Source of the DNA: Thiorhodovibrio winogradskyi
GTDB taxonomy: Bacteria > Pseudomonadota > Gammaproteobacteria > Chromatiales > Chromatiaceae
Reading direction: 5' to 3'
Assembly (NCBI RefSeq): GCF_036208045.1
Contig: NZ_CP121472.1
Span: 3,049,531 to 3,113,530 of the forward strand
Length of the DNA: 64,000 nucleotides
The notes below the pieces were generated by a model, which made no database searches, had not been told where the DNA came from, and was given only the letters and a program-made list of their open reading frames with translations. Positions 43,389 to 64,000 of this stretch are shown in pieces; the first letter of the stretch is position 1; each line of letters begins with the position of its first letter. Both the position numbers and the translations under genes were made by a program.

Positions 43389-43453
43389 GCCTAACAATTA
43401 AAGGGGCCAGGGTAGGATTTTTTCCCAGACAGGGAATCAACTCTGAATCAATC
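43389..43453 (+). repeat. attC-proximal repeat element, copy 1
   Basis: Begins with a GCCTAAC box at 43389-43395, continues with AATTAAAGGGGCCAGGG and ends with AATC just before the GCCTAAC box of attC 2. The 65 bp align along their whole length with 62330-62392, with many identical positions. The element is thus bracketed by two copies of the attC R'' box. Confidence 0.7.
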
Positions 43454-43517
43454 GCCTAACGATGGCCTCCAGTCCGACCGCTCGCTTCGCTCGCAGCGGC
43501 TGAGGCTAGCGTTAGGA
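43454..43517 (+). other. attC site 2
   Basis: Outer boxes GCCTAAC (43454-43460) and GTTAGGA (43511-43517). The inner arms GGCCTCCAGTCCGACCGCT and AGCGGCTGAGGC pair imperfectly around CGCTTCGCTCGC, as expected for an attC folded as a hairpin. It is close in sequence to attC 7 at 62393, differing at roughly ten of 64 positions. Confidence 0.85.
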
Positions 43518-43523
43518 CCTGAG

Positions 43524-44114
43524 ATGAATAGCGACGAAGATATGGATGAACGGACAACCGCCGACCTTCTTGAGGCGCTCGATAGCGACTATCAGAGATG
43601 CTATCAGCAGATCATTACGCGCCTTGATGAAGGAGAACGGGATGAAAAAGGCAACATCTCCGCAGATTACGAGTTTGAAGCCAGACAATTGATACGGGCA
43701 GCCTTCGCGTATATTGAAGGTGCAGTATTTGTAATCAAAATTGAAGCTTCATTTAACTGCGAAGAAAAGGGAATTGAACTTACTCCCCAGCAGCACCATT
43801 TTATATTCGAGGCTGACTTTGACCTAAATGATAAGGGTGAGGTAGTGCAAAAGCCCGCAAAGATTCCTCTCGCCAAGAACATACGCTTTGCGTTTTCCGT
43901 TTTTGCTCAGGCCAACGGTATCAAGCCAACACTGGACGTCGGGTCAGAGTGGTGGTCGAAACTTCAAGAATCTATCAGAGTCAGAGACCGTCTCACTCAT
44001 CCTAGGTCGCCATCGGACTTGGATGTTTCTCCAAGTGAGGTTATTTCAACAGTTGTAGCTAAGTCCGGTTTTGATGAGGCTTTACATGCGCTTATTTCTG
44101 CAAGCAAGGCCTAA
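43524..44114 (+). CDS. Hypothetical protein, integron cassette gene
   Basis: A 196-residue acidic soluble protein with no signal or membrane segment. The start ATG at 43524 is seven bases after the R' box of attC 2. The stop TAA lies inside the following GCCTAAC box (44109-44115), a common cassette feature. Segments such as RQLIRAAFAYIEGAVFVIKI and RVRDRLTHPRSPSDLDV resemble small helical domains of HEPN-like or RiboL-PSP-HEPN proteins, with RxxxxH-like RDRLTH, but this is only a suggestion. Confidence 0.75.
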   Translation: MNSDEDMDERTTADLLEALDSDYQRCYQQIITRLDEGERDEKGNISADYEFEARQLIRAAFAYIEGAVFVIKIEASFNCEEKGIELTPQQHHFIFEADFDLNDKGEVVQKPAKIPLAKNIRFAFSVFAQANGIKPTLDVGSEWWSKLQESIRVRDRLTHPRSPSDLDVSPSEVISTVVAKSGFDEALHALISASKA

Positions 44115-44170
44115 CGAATAAGAATCAAAGAGAATCAAAGGAATCGAAGGGGCCAGGGTGGAGTCCCGGG
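44109..44170 (+). repeat. attC-proximal repeat element, copy 2 (5' part)
   Basis: After the GCCTAAC box that holds the stop of the preceding gene come degenerate GAATCAAAG units, then AAGGGGCCAGGGTGGAG, the same core as copy 1. It does not continue to an attC; other DNA follows, including a transposase remnant, and the attC body that should follow the box is missing. Confidence 0.6.
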
Positions 44171-44484
44171 GACATATTTGGTCCGCCCCGCGATGCAAGA
44201 GGAAAATCGCCATTAGCAGAAGGAAACGTTGCGGCCATATATCCGGCATCGATGTCGGGACGCATTGCGGTCCCCGTGCCCTAATGGAATTCGCGTACCT
44301 CGCCGTCCTCAATCAGTATATCAGTCTCAGCTTAAGCTGGCTGCTGTCCCCGTCAGGTTTTCAGCGAGGCGGTCGTGCCTTTCATGCCATTACAGTGACT
44401 TTCTCTCTTCGCAACTCGTGGTGTGGAACTCGGTTGATGCCCGATCAGGGCGGATTAATCGGAATGGTTCGTGGCCGATAGGCG
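44171..44484. other. Cassette-array spacer without identifiable gene
   Basis: About 310 bp between a repeat element and an IS110-like fragment. Open frames of 76-107 codons exist on both strands but have no ribosome-binding site and no motif I know. It may be debris of an inserted element. Confidence 0.4.
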
Positions 44485-44598
44485 TTACACAGTAACAGCC
44501 GCAGGCTTTGCCAGCGCGCCGAGCGCTGCATCGAAGGCCTTTCCGGTGGTCATCACCGCCCAGGCGATGCGCACGAGCTTGTTGGCCATCGCACGAAA
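44485..44598 (-). pseudogene. Transposase 3' fragment, probably IS110 family
   Basis: The last 37 codons and stop of a transposase: RAMANKLVRIAWAVMTTG followed by KAFDAALGALAKP. The pattern MANKxxRIAWAV near the C-terminus is typical of IS110 (Transposase_20) proteins. The rest of the gene is absent; a 13-bp direct repeat of CGAAAACCGGGAC (44594-44619) lies at the broken end. Confidence 0.6.
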
Positions 44599-44739
44599 AC
44601 CGGGACCGAAAACCGGGACAGACCACGTTTAATTGCGTGAGATTAAGAATCGCCTAACACGCCCATAAAGCCGAGGCCATACTGCGCATCGCCCTTAGAG
44701 CAGGAGATTAGGGGGCAGACCACGATTTTCAATTCAATC
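44594..44739 (+). repeat. Second repeat family next to GCCTAAC boxes
   Basis: GGGACAGACCACG at 44615-44627 and GGGGCAGACCACG at 44712-44724 each lead after a short AT-rich stretch into AATCGCCTAAC, at 44652-44658 and 44740-44746 respectively. The first of these boxes is an orphan: no complete attC follows it. The same arrangement as the other repeat family, with different core sequence. Confidence 0.6.
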
Positions 44740-44836
44740 GCCTAACGAGCCGGTCAAACCGACCCCGCGCGGCCGGCATCGTGAGCTAATCTCAAACGTG
44801 GTGCCGCGCGCGGGTCGGCTTACCGCGACGTTAGGC
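44740..44836 (+). other. attC site 3
   Basis: Outer boxes GCCTAAC (44740-44746) and GTTAGGC (44830-44836), 97 bp apart in total. Inner arms GCCGGTCAAACCGACCCCGC and GCGCGCGGGTCGGCTT pair imperfectly. It directly precedes a toxin-antitoxin cassette. Confidence 0.8.
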
Positions 44837-44867
44837 CAGATAGGCTACATCAGACGATGATGAATAA

Positions 44868-45092
44868 ATGAACACAAAACAACTGATCAATGAAGCGGTA
44901 TCACTGCCAGTAGAAGAACGAGCCTTGGTGATAGATTCGCTCTTGCGGAGTCTGAACCAGCCAGAATCAGATATAGACAAAATATGGGCTAAAGAAGCAA
45001 AGCGTCGCCTTAATGAACTTAGGTCTGGTCGAGTGAAAGCAATACAAGGGGAGGAAGTCTTTAAAAAGGTGTGGGATAGGTTTGAAAAATGA
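44868..45092 (+). CDS. Addiction-module antitoxin component
   Basis: A 74-residue protein of the TIGR02574 / Unstab_antitox family: NEAVSLPVEERALVIDSLL followed by a charged C-terminus (KAIQGEEVFKKVWDRFEK) that should bind the toxin. The start is 31 bp after attC 3. Its stop overlaps the toxin start in ATGA fashion, giving translational coupling typical of toxin-antitoxin operons. AT-rich codon use differs from the host chromosome. Confidence 0.85.
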   Translation: MNTKQLINEAVSLPVEERALVIDSLLRSLNQPESDIDKIWAKEAKRRLNELRSGRVKAIQGEEVFKKVWDRFEK

Positions 45093-45334
45093 ACTTTTCT
45101 TTTCACCAGGAAGCAGAGAAAGAACTCAATGAGGCAATAGATTATTACGAAGATATTGAGCCAGGACTGGGATATGATTTCGCGTTGGAAGTTCGTTCAG
45201 CAATCGATCGGTTGGTCGATTTCCCAAAGGCATGGGCTGTTCTAGATAGCGATGTCAGAAGATCTTTGGTAAAACAATCTAACGGGTCAGGTTCGGTTTT
45301 TTTAAGACCGAATCTAATCCTTCAATTCGCCTAA
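45089..45334 (+). pseudogene. ParE/RelE-family toxin, C-terminus replaced
   Basis: The first 62 or so codons match ParE-type toxins: FSFHQEAEKELNEAIDYYED, GLGYDFALEVRSAIDRL and WAVLDSDVRRSLV. From about residue 64 the frame runs into a repeat element (NGSGSVFLRPNLILQFA) and stops in the next attC box. The C-terminal strands with the family residues are missing, so toxicity is probably lost while the antitoxin remains intact. Confidence 0.8.
45277..45328 (+). repeat. attC-proximal repeat element, copy 3
   Basis: Starts with the box-like ATCTAAC (45277-45283), then GGGTCAGGTTCGG, an internal hairpin of TTCGGT and ACCGAA, and ends with CAATTC before GCCTAAC of attC 4. It lies inside the damaged toxin gene and supplies its false C-terminus. 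Confidence 0.65.
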
Positions 45335-45400
45335 CACGGTGCTCCAGTCGACGCCGGTTTGGCTCTCGCTCAACCGGCTCGACTGAGCATGTCGTTAGGC
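45329..45400 (+). other. attC site 4
   Basis: Outer boxes GCCTAAC (45329-45335) and GTTAGGC (45394-45400), 72 bp. Inner arms GCTCCAGTCGACGCCGGTT and AACCGGCTCGACTGAGC pair with a bulge around TGGCTCTCGCTC. The toxin frame ends inside the first box. Confidence 0.87.
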
Positions 45401-45427
45401 AGAAGAATTACTAATTAAAAAAAGTAA

Positions 45428-45667
45428 ATGAACATCAAATTCTCTCGACATGCGACGAGAAGAGCAAAGCTCTACAAAATTCCTGAAAATGTTATTCGTG
45501 AAATTCTGTCGGATATTGCTTTATCTGACGGTGAACATGAAATTATCAAAAATGTCACTGGGTTCAGATATCCAATAAAAACAGTTGTGACTGTCGAAGG
45601 CGTCAAGATCACTGTGATTACAAATTATCCGCTGAAGAAAGGCAAAACAGATGAACGTTCACTATGA
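45428..45667 (+). CDS. DUF4258 domain protein, cassette gene
   Basis: A 79-residue protein beginning FSRHATRRAKLYKIPENVI, the N-terminal pattern of DUF4258 proteins with conserved His and Arg. GFRYPIKTVVTVEGVKITVIT forms the beta-strand part. It overlaps the following DUF2283 gene by 17 bases. Pairs of this kind often behave like toxin-antitoxin modules in gene neighbourhoods; DUF4258 has a RelE-like size, but no activity is proven here. Confidence 0.8.
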   Translation: MNIKFSRHATRRAKLYKIPENVIREILSDIALSDGEHEIIKNVTGFRYPIKTVVTVEGVKITVITNYPLKKGKTDERSL

Positions 45668-45878
45668 TGAATTAGTTGATGCGCTATATTTAAAGCTTGG
45701 TGATGATGAGCCAGATGGAGTTATTGAAATTGCAGAAGGAGTAAATATTGATACAACTGCTGGGGGTAAACTTGCAGGTATCGAAATATTAGAAGCATCG
45801 AAAAAAATCAACATGAACACTATCTTGTCTTACACGCTTGAATTAGATCACGATTTATTAGCAAAGAAAATCGCCTAA
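45651..45878 (+). CDS. DUF2283 domain protein, cassette gene
   Basis: A 75-residue protein of the DUF2283 family: HYDELVDALYLKLGDDEP, then GVNIDTTAGGKLAGIEILEASKK. Its ATG lies inside the end of the DUF4258 gene, so the two are translated together. The stop TAA falls in the GCCTAAC box of attC 5. It would be the antitoxin-like partner if the pair is an addiction module. Confidence 0.85.
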   Translation: MNVHYDELVDALYLKLGDDEPDGVIEIAEGVNIDTTAGGKLAGIEILEASKKINMNTILSYTLELDHDLLAKKIA

Positions 45879-45938
45879 CGAGTTGCTCCAGCCGAAGCCG
45901 GTTTCGCTCAACCGGCTCGGCTGAGCTTGGCGTTAGAG
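45873..45938 (+). other. attC site 5
   Basis: Outer boxes GCCTAAC (45873-45879) and GTTAGAG (45932-45938; last base deviates from the rule). Inner arms GCTCCAGCCGAAGCCGGTTT and CAACCGGCTCGGCTGAGC pair well around CGCT. It is very like attC 4. Confidence 0.85.
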
Positions 45939-45958
45939 CTGGTAAAGAGTCGAAATAT

Positions 45959-46134
45959 ATATCTGAAATTACACGTTTTTACGGAATCATCATTAAGCTT
46001 TATTTTTTGGCGATCATCCGCCACCACACTTTCACGCCGTTTATGGAGAGCACAACGCTATCTTCAACATAGAAACTTTGGAGATGATTGAGGGCAACCT
46101 TCCCTCAAGAGCACGAAAGCTCGTAATGGAGTGA
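45959..46134 (+). pseudogene. DUF4160 gene remnant, no start and one frameshift
   Basis: Translation in two frames gives EITRFYGIIIKLYF and then GDHPPPHFHAVYGEH with FNIETLEMIEGNLPSRARKL, a nearly complete DUF4160 protein. A run of six T at 46003-46008, two more than expected, separates the frames. The start codon appears mutated (ATA where ATG would be expected at 45959) and the tryptophan after the last glutamate is replaced by a stop. The DUF2442 partner that often follows is absent. Confidence 0.7.
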
Positions 46135-46138
46135 GTAT

Positions 46139-46198
46139 GCTTAACTGTCCAGCCCGACCCTTCGCTTAGCTCGCGGCGGCTAAGGCTGGCGTAAGCAG
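46139..46198 (+). other. attC site 6, degenerate
   Basis: GCTTAAC (46139-46145) fits the first box. The far box is GTAAGCA, missing one T. Between them CCAGCCCGACCCTTCGCTTAGC and CGGCGGCTAAGGCTGG show the usual arms. It is probably an inactive or decaying site. Confidence 0.6.
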
Positions 46199-46222
46199 GC
46201 ACAGAGAACGGAGCAGAGACAA

Positions 46223-61398: not shown

Positions 61399-62156
61399 CC
61401 CCCGGCTATTGCGCTCAAAGGCTTGGCGGAGACAGCGCATCGCCGCGCTGGCTGCTGCTCCATGGCTTCACCGGCAGTCACGCGGACTGGCGCGACACCT
61501 GGCCCGAAACCCGTCCGGCCCTGGCCCTGGACCTGCCAGGTCATGGCCAAAGCCCCGACCCTGAGGGCGATTTCACGGCGGAAATCGCCCGTCTGCTTGC
61601 CGCCCTGCCACCCAGCATCGAGAAAATCGCCGGCTACTCCCTCGGCGGGCGCATCGCCCTCGCGCTCATGGCCGCCGCGCCCGAGCATTTCCGCGCGCTC
61701 ATCATCGTCTCCACCCATCCCGGCCTCACCAATGCCGCGGAACGCGCGACCCGTTGCCGGCAAGACCAGTATTGGATCAACATGCTACGAAACCATGGGA
61801 TCAAGCGCTTTGCCGCCGCCTGGCAGCGCCAACCCTTGTTCCACGCCCAACACCTGCGCGCGCCCCAAGCCGTTGCCGAGCAACACCGTCGCCGGCTCGC
61901 GCAGCGCCCGGAAGGGCTCGCCCAGGCGCTGGCCTGCTTCGGCCTCGGGCGAATGCCACCCACCTGGGATGCCCTTCGAACTTACCAGGGCCATCTGCAC
62001 TGGATCAGCGGCGCGCTGGATGAAAAATTCCGCGACCTCGGCGAGCGCGTGCGCGCCCCGCGCCCTGCCACCACCCACGACATCCTGCCCGAGTGTGGCC
62101 ACAACCCCTTGCTCGAAATGCCGCAAGGGCTCAAGGCTCGGCTGGCGGGACCATGA
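61395..62156 (+). CDS. menH: 2-succinyl-6-hydroxy-2,4-cyclohexadiene-1-carboxylate synthase
   Basis: Alpha/beta-hydrolase-fold lyase removing pyruvate from the MenD product. The 253 residues have LLLHGFTGSHADWRD for the oxyanion region, LALDLPGHGQSPD, the nucleophile motif IAGYSLGGRIALALMA, and the histidine in PECGHNPLLEMP. It ends the cluster menF-D-B-A-C-H. menE, menI and the final methyltransferase gene are not in this window. Confidence 0.92.
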   Translation: MTPGYCAQRLGGDSASPRWLLLHGFTGSHADWRDTWPETRPALALDLPGHGQSPDPEGDFTAEIARLLAALPPSIEKIAGYSLGGRIALALMAAAPEHFRALIIVSTHPGLTNAAERATRCRQDQYWINMLRNHGIKRFAAAWQRQPLFHAQHLRAPQAVAEQHRRRLAQRPEGLAQALACFGLGRMPPTWDALRTYQGHLHWISGALDEKFRDLGERVRAPRPATTHDILPECGHNPLLEMPQGLKARLAGP

Positions 62157-62159
62157 GCG

Positions 62160-62300
62160 TTAGAGCAATCCGTCCAGCGGACTGCGCACCCCCTGCCCGC
62201 CGCGATTGAGCACATGGGTGTAGATCATGGTGGTTGACACATCCGCGTGCCCCAATAGTTCCTGTACCGTGCGAATGTCATAGCCGGACTCCAGCAAATA
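62160..62300 (-). pseudogene. intI: Integron integrase (intI) remnant, 3' end only
   Basis: On the minus strand 45 codons and a stop read [20 protein letters not shown] followed by [20 protein letters not shown] and LDGLL. This is the C-terminal end of a tyrosine recombinase with the catalytic Tyr in MIYTHV. The tail HVLNRGGxGVxSPLD is characteristic of integron integrases. The frame meets a stop and repeat DNA at 62301, so the N-terminal five-sixths and attI are gone. The stop lies four bases after the menH stop region. Its direction, away from the adjacent attC, is that of an integron. Confidence 0.85.
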
Positions 62301-62392
62301 AAATTAAAGGAATAAAATTAAAGTGAATTAAAGGAATTAAAGGGGTCTGGATGGAATTGTTTTCCAGCCTGTAAATCAACTCGCATTCAATT
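62301..62392 (+). repeat. attC-proximal repeat element, copy 4
   Basis: Starts with four degenerate AATTAAAGG units, then GGGGTCTGGATGGAATTG, and ends with CATTCAATT before GCCTAAC of attC 7. From 62330 on it aligns with copy 1 at 43396-43453. It replaces the 5' part of intI. Confidence 0.7.
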
Positions 62393-62456
62393 GCCTAACG
62401 CTGGCCTTCAGTCCGACCGCTCGCTTCGCTCGCGGTGGCTGAGGCTGGAGTTAGAT
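62393..62456 (+). other. attC site 7, next to the intI remnant
   Basis: Outer boxes GCCTAAC (62393-62399) and GTTAGAT (62450-62456). The inner arms GGCCTTCAGTCCGACCGCTC and GCGGTGGCTGAGGC enclose GCTTCGCTC. It is the near twin of attC 2 in the array 19 kb to the left. Confidence 0.85.
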
Positions 62457-62630
62457 ATCCAGTGTCCTTGGCCTCGTGAGTGGAAAAAGAATTTGAGCCT
62501 TACGCATTTAACCTTTTGTAATCTAACCCGCCAAACGCGCAGCTGCCGGCTCTTCCCGCACGATTCAAGTCACGATATTCGCTGAGCAGTTCGCACATCA
62601 CCCGCGGTTTACTATAGGAGAACACCACGA
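62457..62630. other. Spacer between attC 7 and the RiPP precursor gene
   Basis: No gene seen in these 174 bp. A GGAG at 62617-62620 serves as the ribosome-binding site for the ATG at 62631. Confidence 0.5.
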
Positions 62631-62910
62631 ATGACCAACCCGACAATATCAACAACTCATCGCCAAGTGCTGGGCCGACGAGGCCTTTAAGCAGCGGCTC
62701 TTGGCCGACCTGGCCGAAACCCTCAAAGACGAGGGGATGGAAGTGCCCGAGGGCATTCGAGTGCAGGTAGTGGAGAACACGGCACAGGTCTTTAATCTGG
62801 TGATTCCCGCCCGGCCTACAGAGCTCTCAGATAAAGAGTTGGAAGTAGTGGGTGGGGGGTTTTTCCATGGCCGTCTGGCTAACGGTTTTTATTGCGGCAT
62901 ATCGATATGA
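62631..62910 (+). pseudogene. NHLP-type RiPP precursor peptide gene with N-terminal frameshift
   Basis: ATG at 62631 with GGAG ten bases upstream gives MTNP, then shifts frame; read in the next frame the sequence is QYQQLIAKCWADEAFKQRLL, AEGMEVPEGIRV-like EGMEVPEGIRVQVVENT, VFNLVIPARPTELSDKELE and VVGGG. This is the nitrile-hydratase-like (NHLP) leader of ribosomally made peptides with its double-glycine cleavage site. The core would be FFHGRLANGFYCGISI. One extra base near 62643 breaks the frame; a TTG at 62701 could restart a shortened form. No modifying enzyme or transporter gene is seen nearby. Confidence 0.75.
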
Positions 62911-63424
62911 TACAGACACGAGGATAGGTGACAATAGCTTTTGCTACACCTTCAAAGATTTGTTTTCATAGTCGCTTTCCAGATTGGCATTAATCATCGG
63001 TTAATTTACCCACCCTAGCCGCATTTCTGACTTTCGCGTAATATGCTAAGTTTATGATAGTAAATGTCTTGTAAACAAATACGGATAAAGGTTTTGGACC
63101 AAGGGATGATCACGGCCGATCAATGAATCTCCGAATTGAGAGCGCCAAGCGACAGAAGACACTTATAAAGATCGCGACTACTATTCTGTTACATTGCTCA
63201 CCATGGTGTTCCTGATCGTCGTTACGACGCTGGTGTCTACAATCCCGACAAATCCGACAAAGATCCCGCATCAATGGCGCCGGGCATTTGGCATCGCTCT
63301 GCTGGAGGTCTTCGTTGATGGCCCATGGCTCTCTGACATGGGCCTAATGCAACTGAGCGCACAAAATGCCCGTGTTTTCGGTTAGGCTTGATCCTTAAAG
63401 ACTGCTTCACGCCCACTCACCACC
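62911..63424. other. AT-richer intergenic region, no gene supported
   Basis: A 514-bp stretch. An open frame at 63194-63385 (63 codons) has no ribosome-binding site or known motif. A GTTAGGC at 63381-63387 and GCCTAA about 40 bases before it resemble attC boxes but the spacing is too short and no arms are seen. Confidence 0.45.
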
Positions 63425-64000
63425 ATGCACATCGCCAACCCCATGTACGACACCGTCTTCAAGTACCTACTTGAGGACAATGCGCTGGCCAAACTGCTGA
63501 TCGGCACCATCCTGCAAGAGGAGATCCTCAGCCTGGAGTTCTGCCCACAGGAGCGCACCCAGGAGATCGAGCGCGCAGGCAAACGGGGGATGACTGTCTA
63601 TCGCATGGACTTCGCCGCGCGCGTGCGCAATGTCGAGGGCGTCGAGCGCCAGGTGCTGATTGAGCTGCAAAAGGCCAAGTTCGCCACCGATATCCTGCGC
63701 TTTCGCCGCTATCTGAGCGGCCAGTATCGCGACCCGGATAATATCCGCCTCATTGAGCGCGATGATGGCAAGCTGGCACGCGAGGGCATTCCCATTCTGA
63801 CCATCTATTTCCTCGGCCATGCGCTCGACCATACTGAAGCTCCGGTCGTTCGCGTGCGCCGCGACTGCGTTGATCTCGCCTCCGGACAATCGCTGGAACG
63901 CCCCGAGCCCTTTATCGAAAGCCTGACGCATGACAGCTATGTGATTCAGATCCCCAAGCTCAAGGATCAGCCGCGCAACGCCATTGAAGAGATGCTGCAA
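63425..64000 (+). CDS. PD-(D/E)XK nuclease family transposase / Rpn-like protein, 5' part
   Basis: The frame is open to the right edge: 192 codons are visible, beginning MHIANPMYDTVFKYLLED. The nuclease-core pattern is MDFAARVRNVEGVERQVLIE with LQKAKF after it, where Asp and the Glu-x-Gln/Lys group fit the PD-(D/E)XK fold. KYLLEDNALAKLLIGTIL and YRMDFA are typical of PDDEXK_2 / Rpn recombination-promoting proteins, which are often spread by mobile elements. The 3' end lies outside the window. Confidence 0.82.
   Translation, partial: MHIANPMYDTVFKYLLEDNALAKLLIGTILQEEILSLEFCPQERTQEIERAGKRGMTVYRMDFAARVRNVEGVERQVLIELQKAKFATDILRFRRYLSGQYRDPDNIRLIERDDGKLAREGIPILTIYFLGHALDHTEAPVVRVRRDCVDLASGQSLERPEPFIESLTHDSYVIQIPKLKDQPRNAIEEMLQ

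Follow-up and report, generated by a model that had tools for sequence, protein, structure and literature searches.

A probably dead NHLP-leader RiPP precursor gene beside an integron remnant in Thiorhodovibrio winogradskyi

Results

An NHLP-family leader and a short variable core

The window analysed here is a stretch of 64,000 nucleotides from Thiorhodovibrio winogradskyi (assembly GCF_036208045.1, contig NZ_CP121472.1, positions 3,049,531 to 3,113,530). Near its right-hand end lie, in this order, the remnant of an integron integrase gene (intI), the 3' tail of a cassette, an attC site, and a gene whose product carries a nitrile-hydratase-like leader (NHLP; Table 1). The leader matches the profile TIGR03793 at E 1e-24, well over the cut-off of 50.9 bits, and it is the top of nine rows in a genome-wide NHLP leader search. 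It ends in VVGGG and runs into a core of 16 residues, FFHGRLANGFYCGISI, in which one residue is Cys and four are aromatic, closed by a TGA at 62908-62910. The initial annotation had proposed both an NHLP-leader RiPP precursor and this layout, with "several" aromatics, and both are borne out. Among 12 members of the subfamily the cores that follow Gly-Gly differ in sequence. By its leader profile and by the variable core after Gly-Gly, the gene is a predicted RiPP precursor of the NHLP family.

Could it be a fragment of a nitrile hydratase alpha subunit instead, and no RiPP precursor? The profile PF02979 (NHase_alpha) does score 41.2 bits, above its cut-off of 27.2; such a match is to be expected, since NHLP leaders and nitrile hydratase alpha are described as homologous families in PMC2887384. 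However, TIGR01323 reaches only 40.1 bits against a cut-off of 249.85, while TIGR03793 gives 86.1, and the Gly-Gly end with its short variable core is as in the NHLP peptides of that same paper. The profile scores contradict a hydratase fragment, which we regard as extremely improbable. Between 62000 and 63500 there were no Rfam matches.

Table 1. Coordinates of the features discussed. Plain numbers are window positions; C1 and L numbers refer to the contig and to extracted loci.
Feature	Position	Strand	Basis or remark
intI C-terminal remnant	62146..62299 (coding part 62160-62297)	-	TIGR02249 77.9 bits, profile 272-315 of 315
Cassette 3' tail, repeat preceding attC sites in genome	62333..62392	+	62333-62454 recurs
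attC, R'' GCCTAAC, R' GTTAGAT	62393..62456	+	own-genome attC family; 90.4 bits, model R1 (built with this site included); bottom-strand fold z -2.07
Upstream region common with relatives, ribosome-binding site AGGAG 62616-62620	62595..62626	+	79% identity to L074 10123-10180 from 62595; alignment
Apparent lesion 1: ACG at family start-codon position	62627..62629	+	ATG in 18, TTG in 1 of 19 relatives
Short out-of-frame ORF from ATG 62631	62631..62690	+	read directly
Apparent lesion 2: net one-base deficit, exact base unfixed by alignment	62639..62642	+	19 of 19 relatives one base longer
NHLP leader coding region, frame 1	62650..62859	+	TIGR03793 86.1 bits; dN/dS 0.13-0.21 against 11 relatives
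Core region and stop codon	62860..62910	+	read directly; relatives' cores differ
Nif11-type precursor	C1:1759411-1759760 (L111:4175-4761 with attC)	-	3' attC 1759174-1759251, 25.3 bits, 160 bases after gene
Nif11-type precursor	C1:1976754-1977170 (L040:489-1171 with attC)	-	3' attC 1976488-1976565, 30.8 bits, 189 bases after gene
Third Nif11 gene	C1:1981349-1981632 (in L040:5349-5851)	-	follows motif-found attC, array of intact intI at 1987596
attC-model matches in second array	43451-43520, 44737-44839, 45326-45403, 45870-45941, 46130-46199		

Loss of the start codon and of the frame

The 5' end of the gene was aligned with those of 19 relatives, which together with the window make up 20 of 32 rows in all; the rows set aside are three duplicates, two contig-edge pieces, two fragments from the own genome and five sequences from the LanM cluster, which belong to another subfamily. 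L077 and L081, both among the 19, have almost the same sequence and come from two genomes. At the family start position one relative (L018) has TTG, all others have ATG, and the window reads ACG; a few bases further on, the window falls one base short of every relative. Read from this alignment, the gene appears to have lost both its start codon and its frame, and as it stands would not be an intact translatable gene. The ribosome-binding site, which had been called intact, is indeed kept in the closest relatives. The ATG at 62631, taken before as the start, is made up of bases that once belonged to codons two and three of the gene, and opens 19 codons only before a TAA at 62688-62690; the family start lies upstream of it. 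As for the single-base shift earlier placed near 62643, a one-base deficit does exist, located at about 62639-62642, and the second lesion, that of the start codon, had gone unnoticed.

Over 69 leader codons the dN/dS values of the window against 11 relatives (Table 1) may be set beside 0.16-0.46 in the six pairs formed by four of those relatives. In the window one of 27 invariant leader sites has changed, with Leu in place of Pro at 62710. The leader frame still appears to bear the mark of past selection and, because dN/dS is low and 26 of the 27 invariant sites are kept, the leader would have been under selection until lately and the inactivation would be recent.

Partner genes in relatives and in the own genome

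Matches to the precursor at E<=1e-6 were found in 12 of the 146 genomes of the family, the own genome (G000) included. Subfamily precursors adjoin NHLP export genes in G028 and G076, both of the same genus, and in G021 and G107. These export genes exceed the cut-offs of TIGR03794, TIGR03796 and TIGR03797 in G028 and of TIGR03794 and TIGR03797 in G107, and were recognised by similarity in G076 and G021. Over 508 residues the exporters of G028 and G076 share 98% identity, and identity to that of G021 is 76%. Further genes lie close to the precursors: a radical SAM gene stands beside the precursor in G076 (TIGR04064, 387 bits with a cut-off of 518.7; PapB family, 264.9 with a cut-off of 340, hence below both), genes for a TOMM cyclodehydratase and for a dehydrogenase of SagB type, both above their cut-offs, accompany it in G107, and a methyltransferase gene adjoins it in G021. 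G028 has intact subfamily precursors without an evident maturase close by. In these intact relatives, as gene context and established knowledge of the TIGR03793/03794/03796/03797 systems suggest, a maturase such as the radical SAM of G076 or the cyclodehydratase and dehydrogenase of G107 would recognise the leader, the variable core would be modified, and a peptidase-containing ABC exporter would cut after Gly-Gly and export the product.

Two side observations concern these loci. The match of the G076 exporter ORF (L074:15124-19001) ends after residue 508, as if the gene had been deleted or frameshifted into a second ABC gene. In G028, reverse-transcriptase-like fragments lie beside NHLP precursors with variable cores at L071:9759-10100 and L072:9107-9712; the L072 fragment matches group II intron reverse transcriptase (best match) and RVT_1, and the L071 fragment, without a profile match, was judged by eye. 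As a source of the variation in the cores, a diversity-generating retroelement is conceivable.

The own genome holds one TIGR03796 exporter over cut-off. At 44% identity to the subfamily exporter it is a paralogue from another NHLP system, and the subfamily's own exporter is absent. No match to the radical SAM of G076 was seen at E<=1e-40 in seven genomes other than G076, nor in the own genome, which presents no cognate pair of maturase and exporter at these levels. Within the window, profile searches found no NHLP exporter and no second NHLP or Nif11 leader. The initial annotation had left open whether NHLP leaders and maturases occur elsewhere in the genome, and they do. A RiPP region at C1:1551-1582 kb (L009:11722-19780, L014:6377-14861) contains a LanM gene with five tandem NHLP precursors, a YcaO gene, an NHLP ABC pair (TIGR03796 and TIGR03797), a radical SAM gene and two Nif11 precursors. 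The window gene lies 1.5 Mb from the other NHLP and Nif11 precursors, LanM, YcaO and radical SAM of this genome. Two further members of its leader subfamily, at C1:1714055 and 1727198, are 5'-truncated fragments.

A dead gene or a live orphan?

We take the window gene to be an NHLP RiPP precursor that has lost its partners and has recently died, and give this reading a probability of roughly 0.8. The subfamily exporter is gone from the genome, the precursor has lost its start codon and frame, and the inactivation would be recent. Because the start is lost, the frame broken and the own exporter absent, death is favoured over service from afar, and the fragmentary state of the two other subfamily members would speak for it as well. 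Against it stand the low dN/dS and a leader frame that is intact over 69 codons; a sequence error or an unusual start may be at play.

If so, the gene could be a live orphan, its lesions being sequence errors or bypassed by another start (e.g., TTG 62701), with the peptide served by an enzyme encoded far away and by the exporter paralogue. The open leader frame and its 26 kept sites fit with this, as does the presence of LanM, YcaO, radical SAM and an NHLP exporter in the genome; the second, complete NHLP/LanM/YcaO region might serve the window precursor, and precursors distant from their enzymes are described in PMC2887384. However, the window departs from the relatives at two separate places within 16 bases, the start codon being one of these, a start at TTG 62701 would cost the leader its first quarter and has no purine-rich site in view before it, and the subfamily exporter is missing from the genome. 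We consider a live orphan unlikely. Orphan state alone is no sign of death, since G028 has intact precursors without an evident maturase. The earlier alternative, an orphan served from afar or a dead gene, was right; of its two branches, the two lesions and the missing exporter favour the dead gene and disfavour distant service.

The integron remnant and its attC site

The DNA of the intI remnant is 94% identical to the intact intI region at C1:5320942-5321883. That an integron remnant adjoins the gene had been recognised before, and the attC site had been overlooked. Copies of the segment 62333-62454, which takes in the attC, stand at several places in the genome, complete or almost so and 75-88% identical. 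Eleven of 13 extracted own-genome sequences were aligned and a covariance model was built from them; with scores for 150 of 6240 candidates, it finds at least 27 sites in the genome at E<=1. A second attC sequence type has the same ends and arm motifs, and in the alignment no pairs (0) had changed on both sides. We conclude that the attC at 62393-62456 is genuine. The precursor lies directly 3' of this last attC of a decayed integron, at the next cassette position, so that on its 5' side it is flanked as a cassette would be, by an attC and the intI remnant.

The 3' side is different: model and motif scans of 62460-63430 found no attC. A repeat finder returned one weak inverted repeat only in 62280-63430, blastn of 62840-63430 against 21 loci from relatives or the own genome found no homology, and a whole-genome search with the same segment gave two weak matches within the own genome, each some 70 bases long. 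At the men locus of the same-genus genomes G028 and G076, genes resembling bchI and bchD (by eye) come after menH, with no attC by motif, and neither the integron remnant nor the precursor stands at this site there.

Was the precursor, then, captured as a second-position cassette whose own attC was lost later? The same decay would have removed most of intI and the gene of the first cassette, and such an origin is compatible with a dead gene. The gene comes after a genuine attC, on that side of the intI remnant where cassettes lie and in cassette orientation, and three Nif11-type precursors of the same genome stand at attC sites and are oriented likewise, two of them with a 3' attC (Table 1). 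Yet no attC follows the window gene, 168 bases separate the attC from the start position, and near the relatives no attC-model match was seen in 27 loci, except at an own-genome Nif11 gene (L111); a loose motif scan gave scattered matches in some loci, which we take as chance. We hold a cassette origin to be rather improbable.

Nif11-type precursors at attC sites of the same genome

The three Nif11-type genes, here named by their positions as the 1759, 1976 and 1981 genes, are intact. They score 23.9, 16.7 and 25.9 bits, respectively, with the Nif11 model, all under its cut-off of 32.3. The 1759 and 1976 genes each carry a 3' attC of their own, on the strand of the gene. Aligned with each other, the 1759 and 1981 genes show 67% identity, with a common leader and differing cores; their GC contents are 0.41 and 0.36, where the window has 0.61. 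Neither has a relative at E<=1e-6 among the 209 genomes of the order besides the own one (210 in total), and the two proteins (MQT...) had no relatives in viral contigs and none in plasmids, where one of the two was searched. Their AT-richness, lack of relatives and differing cores would fit with imported cassettes. The 1976 gene is 46% identical to a chromosomal precursor of the same genome.

For a tally of precursors we counted 15 (eight of the nine NHLP-search rows, the ninth being a Nif11 gene, and all seven Nif11-search rows). Three of the 15, namely the window gene and the 1759 and 1976 genes, have a model-found attC on their own strand at a distance of no more than 300 bases; the 1981 gene, whose attC is motif-found, counts as a miss. 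Without the window gene the count is 2/14, and random placement of the eight corresponding loci gives at least two in 0.07% of 200,000 trials, a post hoc statistic that leaves aside a possible preference of integrons for small genes. As a separate observation, the same block of insertion-sequence-like ORFs lies near both intact intI copies (L037:4798-6946, L040:6168-8316).

Discussion

The gene shares with the NHLP systems (TIGR03793; PMC2887384) its nitrile-hydratase-like leader, Gly-Gly and variable core, and its relatives adjoin TIGR03794/03796/03797 export genes; it differs from them by the lost start and frame, the absent cognate exporter, and the adjoining attC and intI remnant. That paper already describes, for the family, cores that vary, genomes with several precursors and precursors located far from their enzymes, and the window precursor is a new dead member of this family. 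On our preferred reading it would be an ordinary, recently dead NHLP precursor that shows how loss of an exporter orphans precursors. Nif11-leader precursors (TIGR03798) are alike in having a leader, Gly-Gly and a variable core, and in this genome three of them stand at attC sites; they belong to another leader family, and those three are intact.

Compared with chromosomal integron cassettes, the window gene has an attC of the own-genome family and an intI remnant on the expected side, in the expected orientation, but it is without a 3' attC, and RiPP content of cassettes was not found in the literature searched. Integrons are gene-shuffling elements best known for the spread of drug resistance. 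The Nif11-type precursors with a 3' attC suggest that integrons can also carry substrates of peptide-modifying enzymes. We tentatively propose, as a possibility that we hold to be rather improbable, that this bacterium keeps orphan RiPP precursors as cassettes in its integrons and reshuffles them there, for maturases and exporters encoded elsewhere, the window NHLP gene being a dead member of that library. If true, a fixed leader with a variable core would make an exchangeable library of peptide substrates for maturases and exporters, and cassette-borne precursors would allow peptides to be swapped without moving whole gene clusters. No account of integron cassettes that hold RiPP precursors came up in the literature searched, outside which most subscription papers lie, and within it such cassettes appear to be undescribed. 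The initial annotation had the RiPP precursor, the frameshift and the integron remnant; its interpretation lacked the RiPP precursors that stand at other attC sites of the genome.

Two other features of the region are recorded here in their own right. Just to the right of the window lie Wadjet JetB, JetC and JetD genes (L013:5880-11549), with no JetA among the ORFs inspected. A second cassette array, at 43396-46199 of the window, has five attC-model matches (Table 1), and to its left lies a tyrosine recombinase gene (C1:3090723-3091235).
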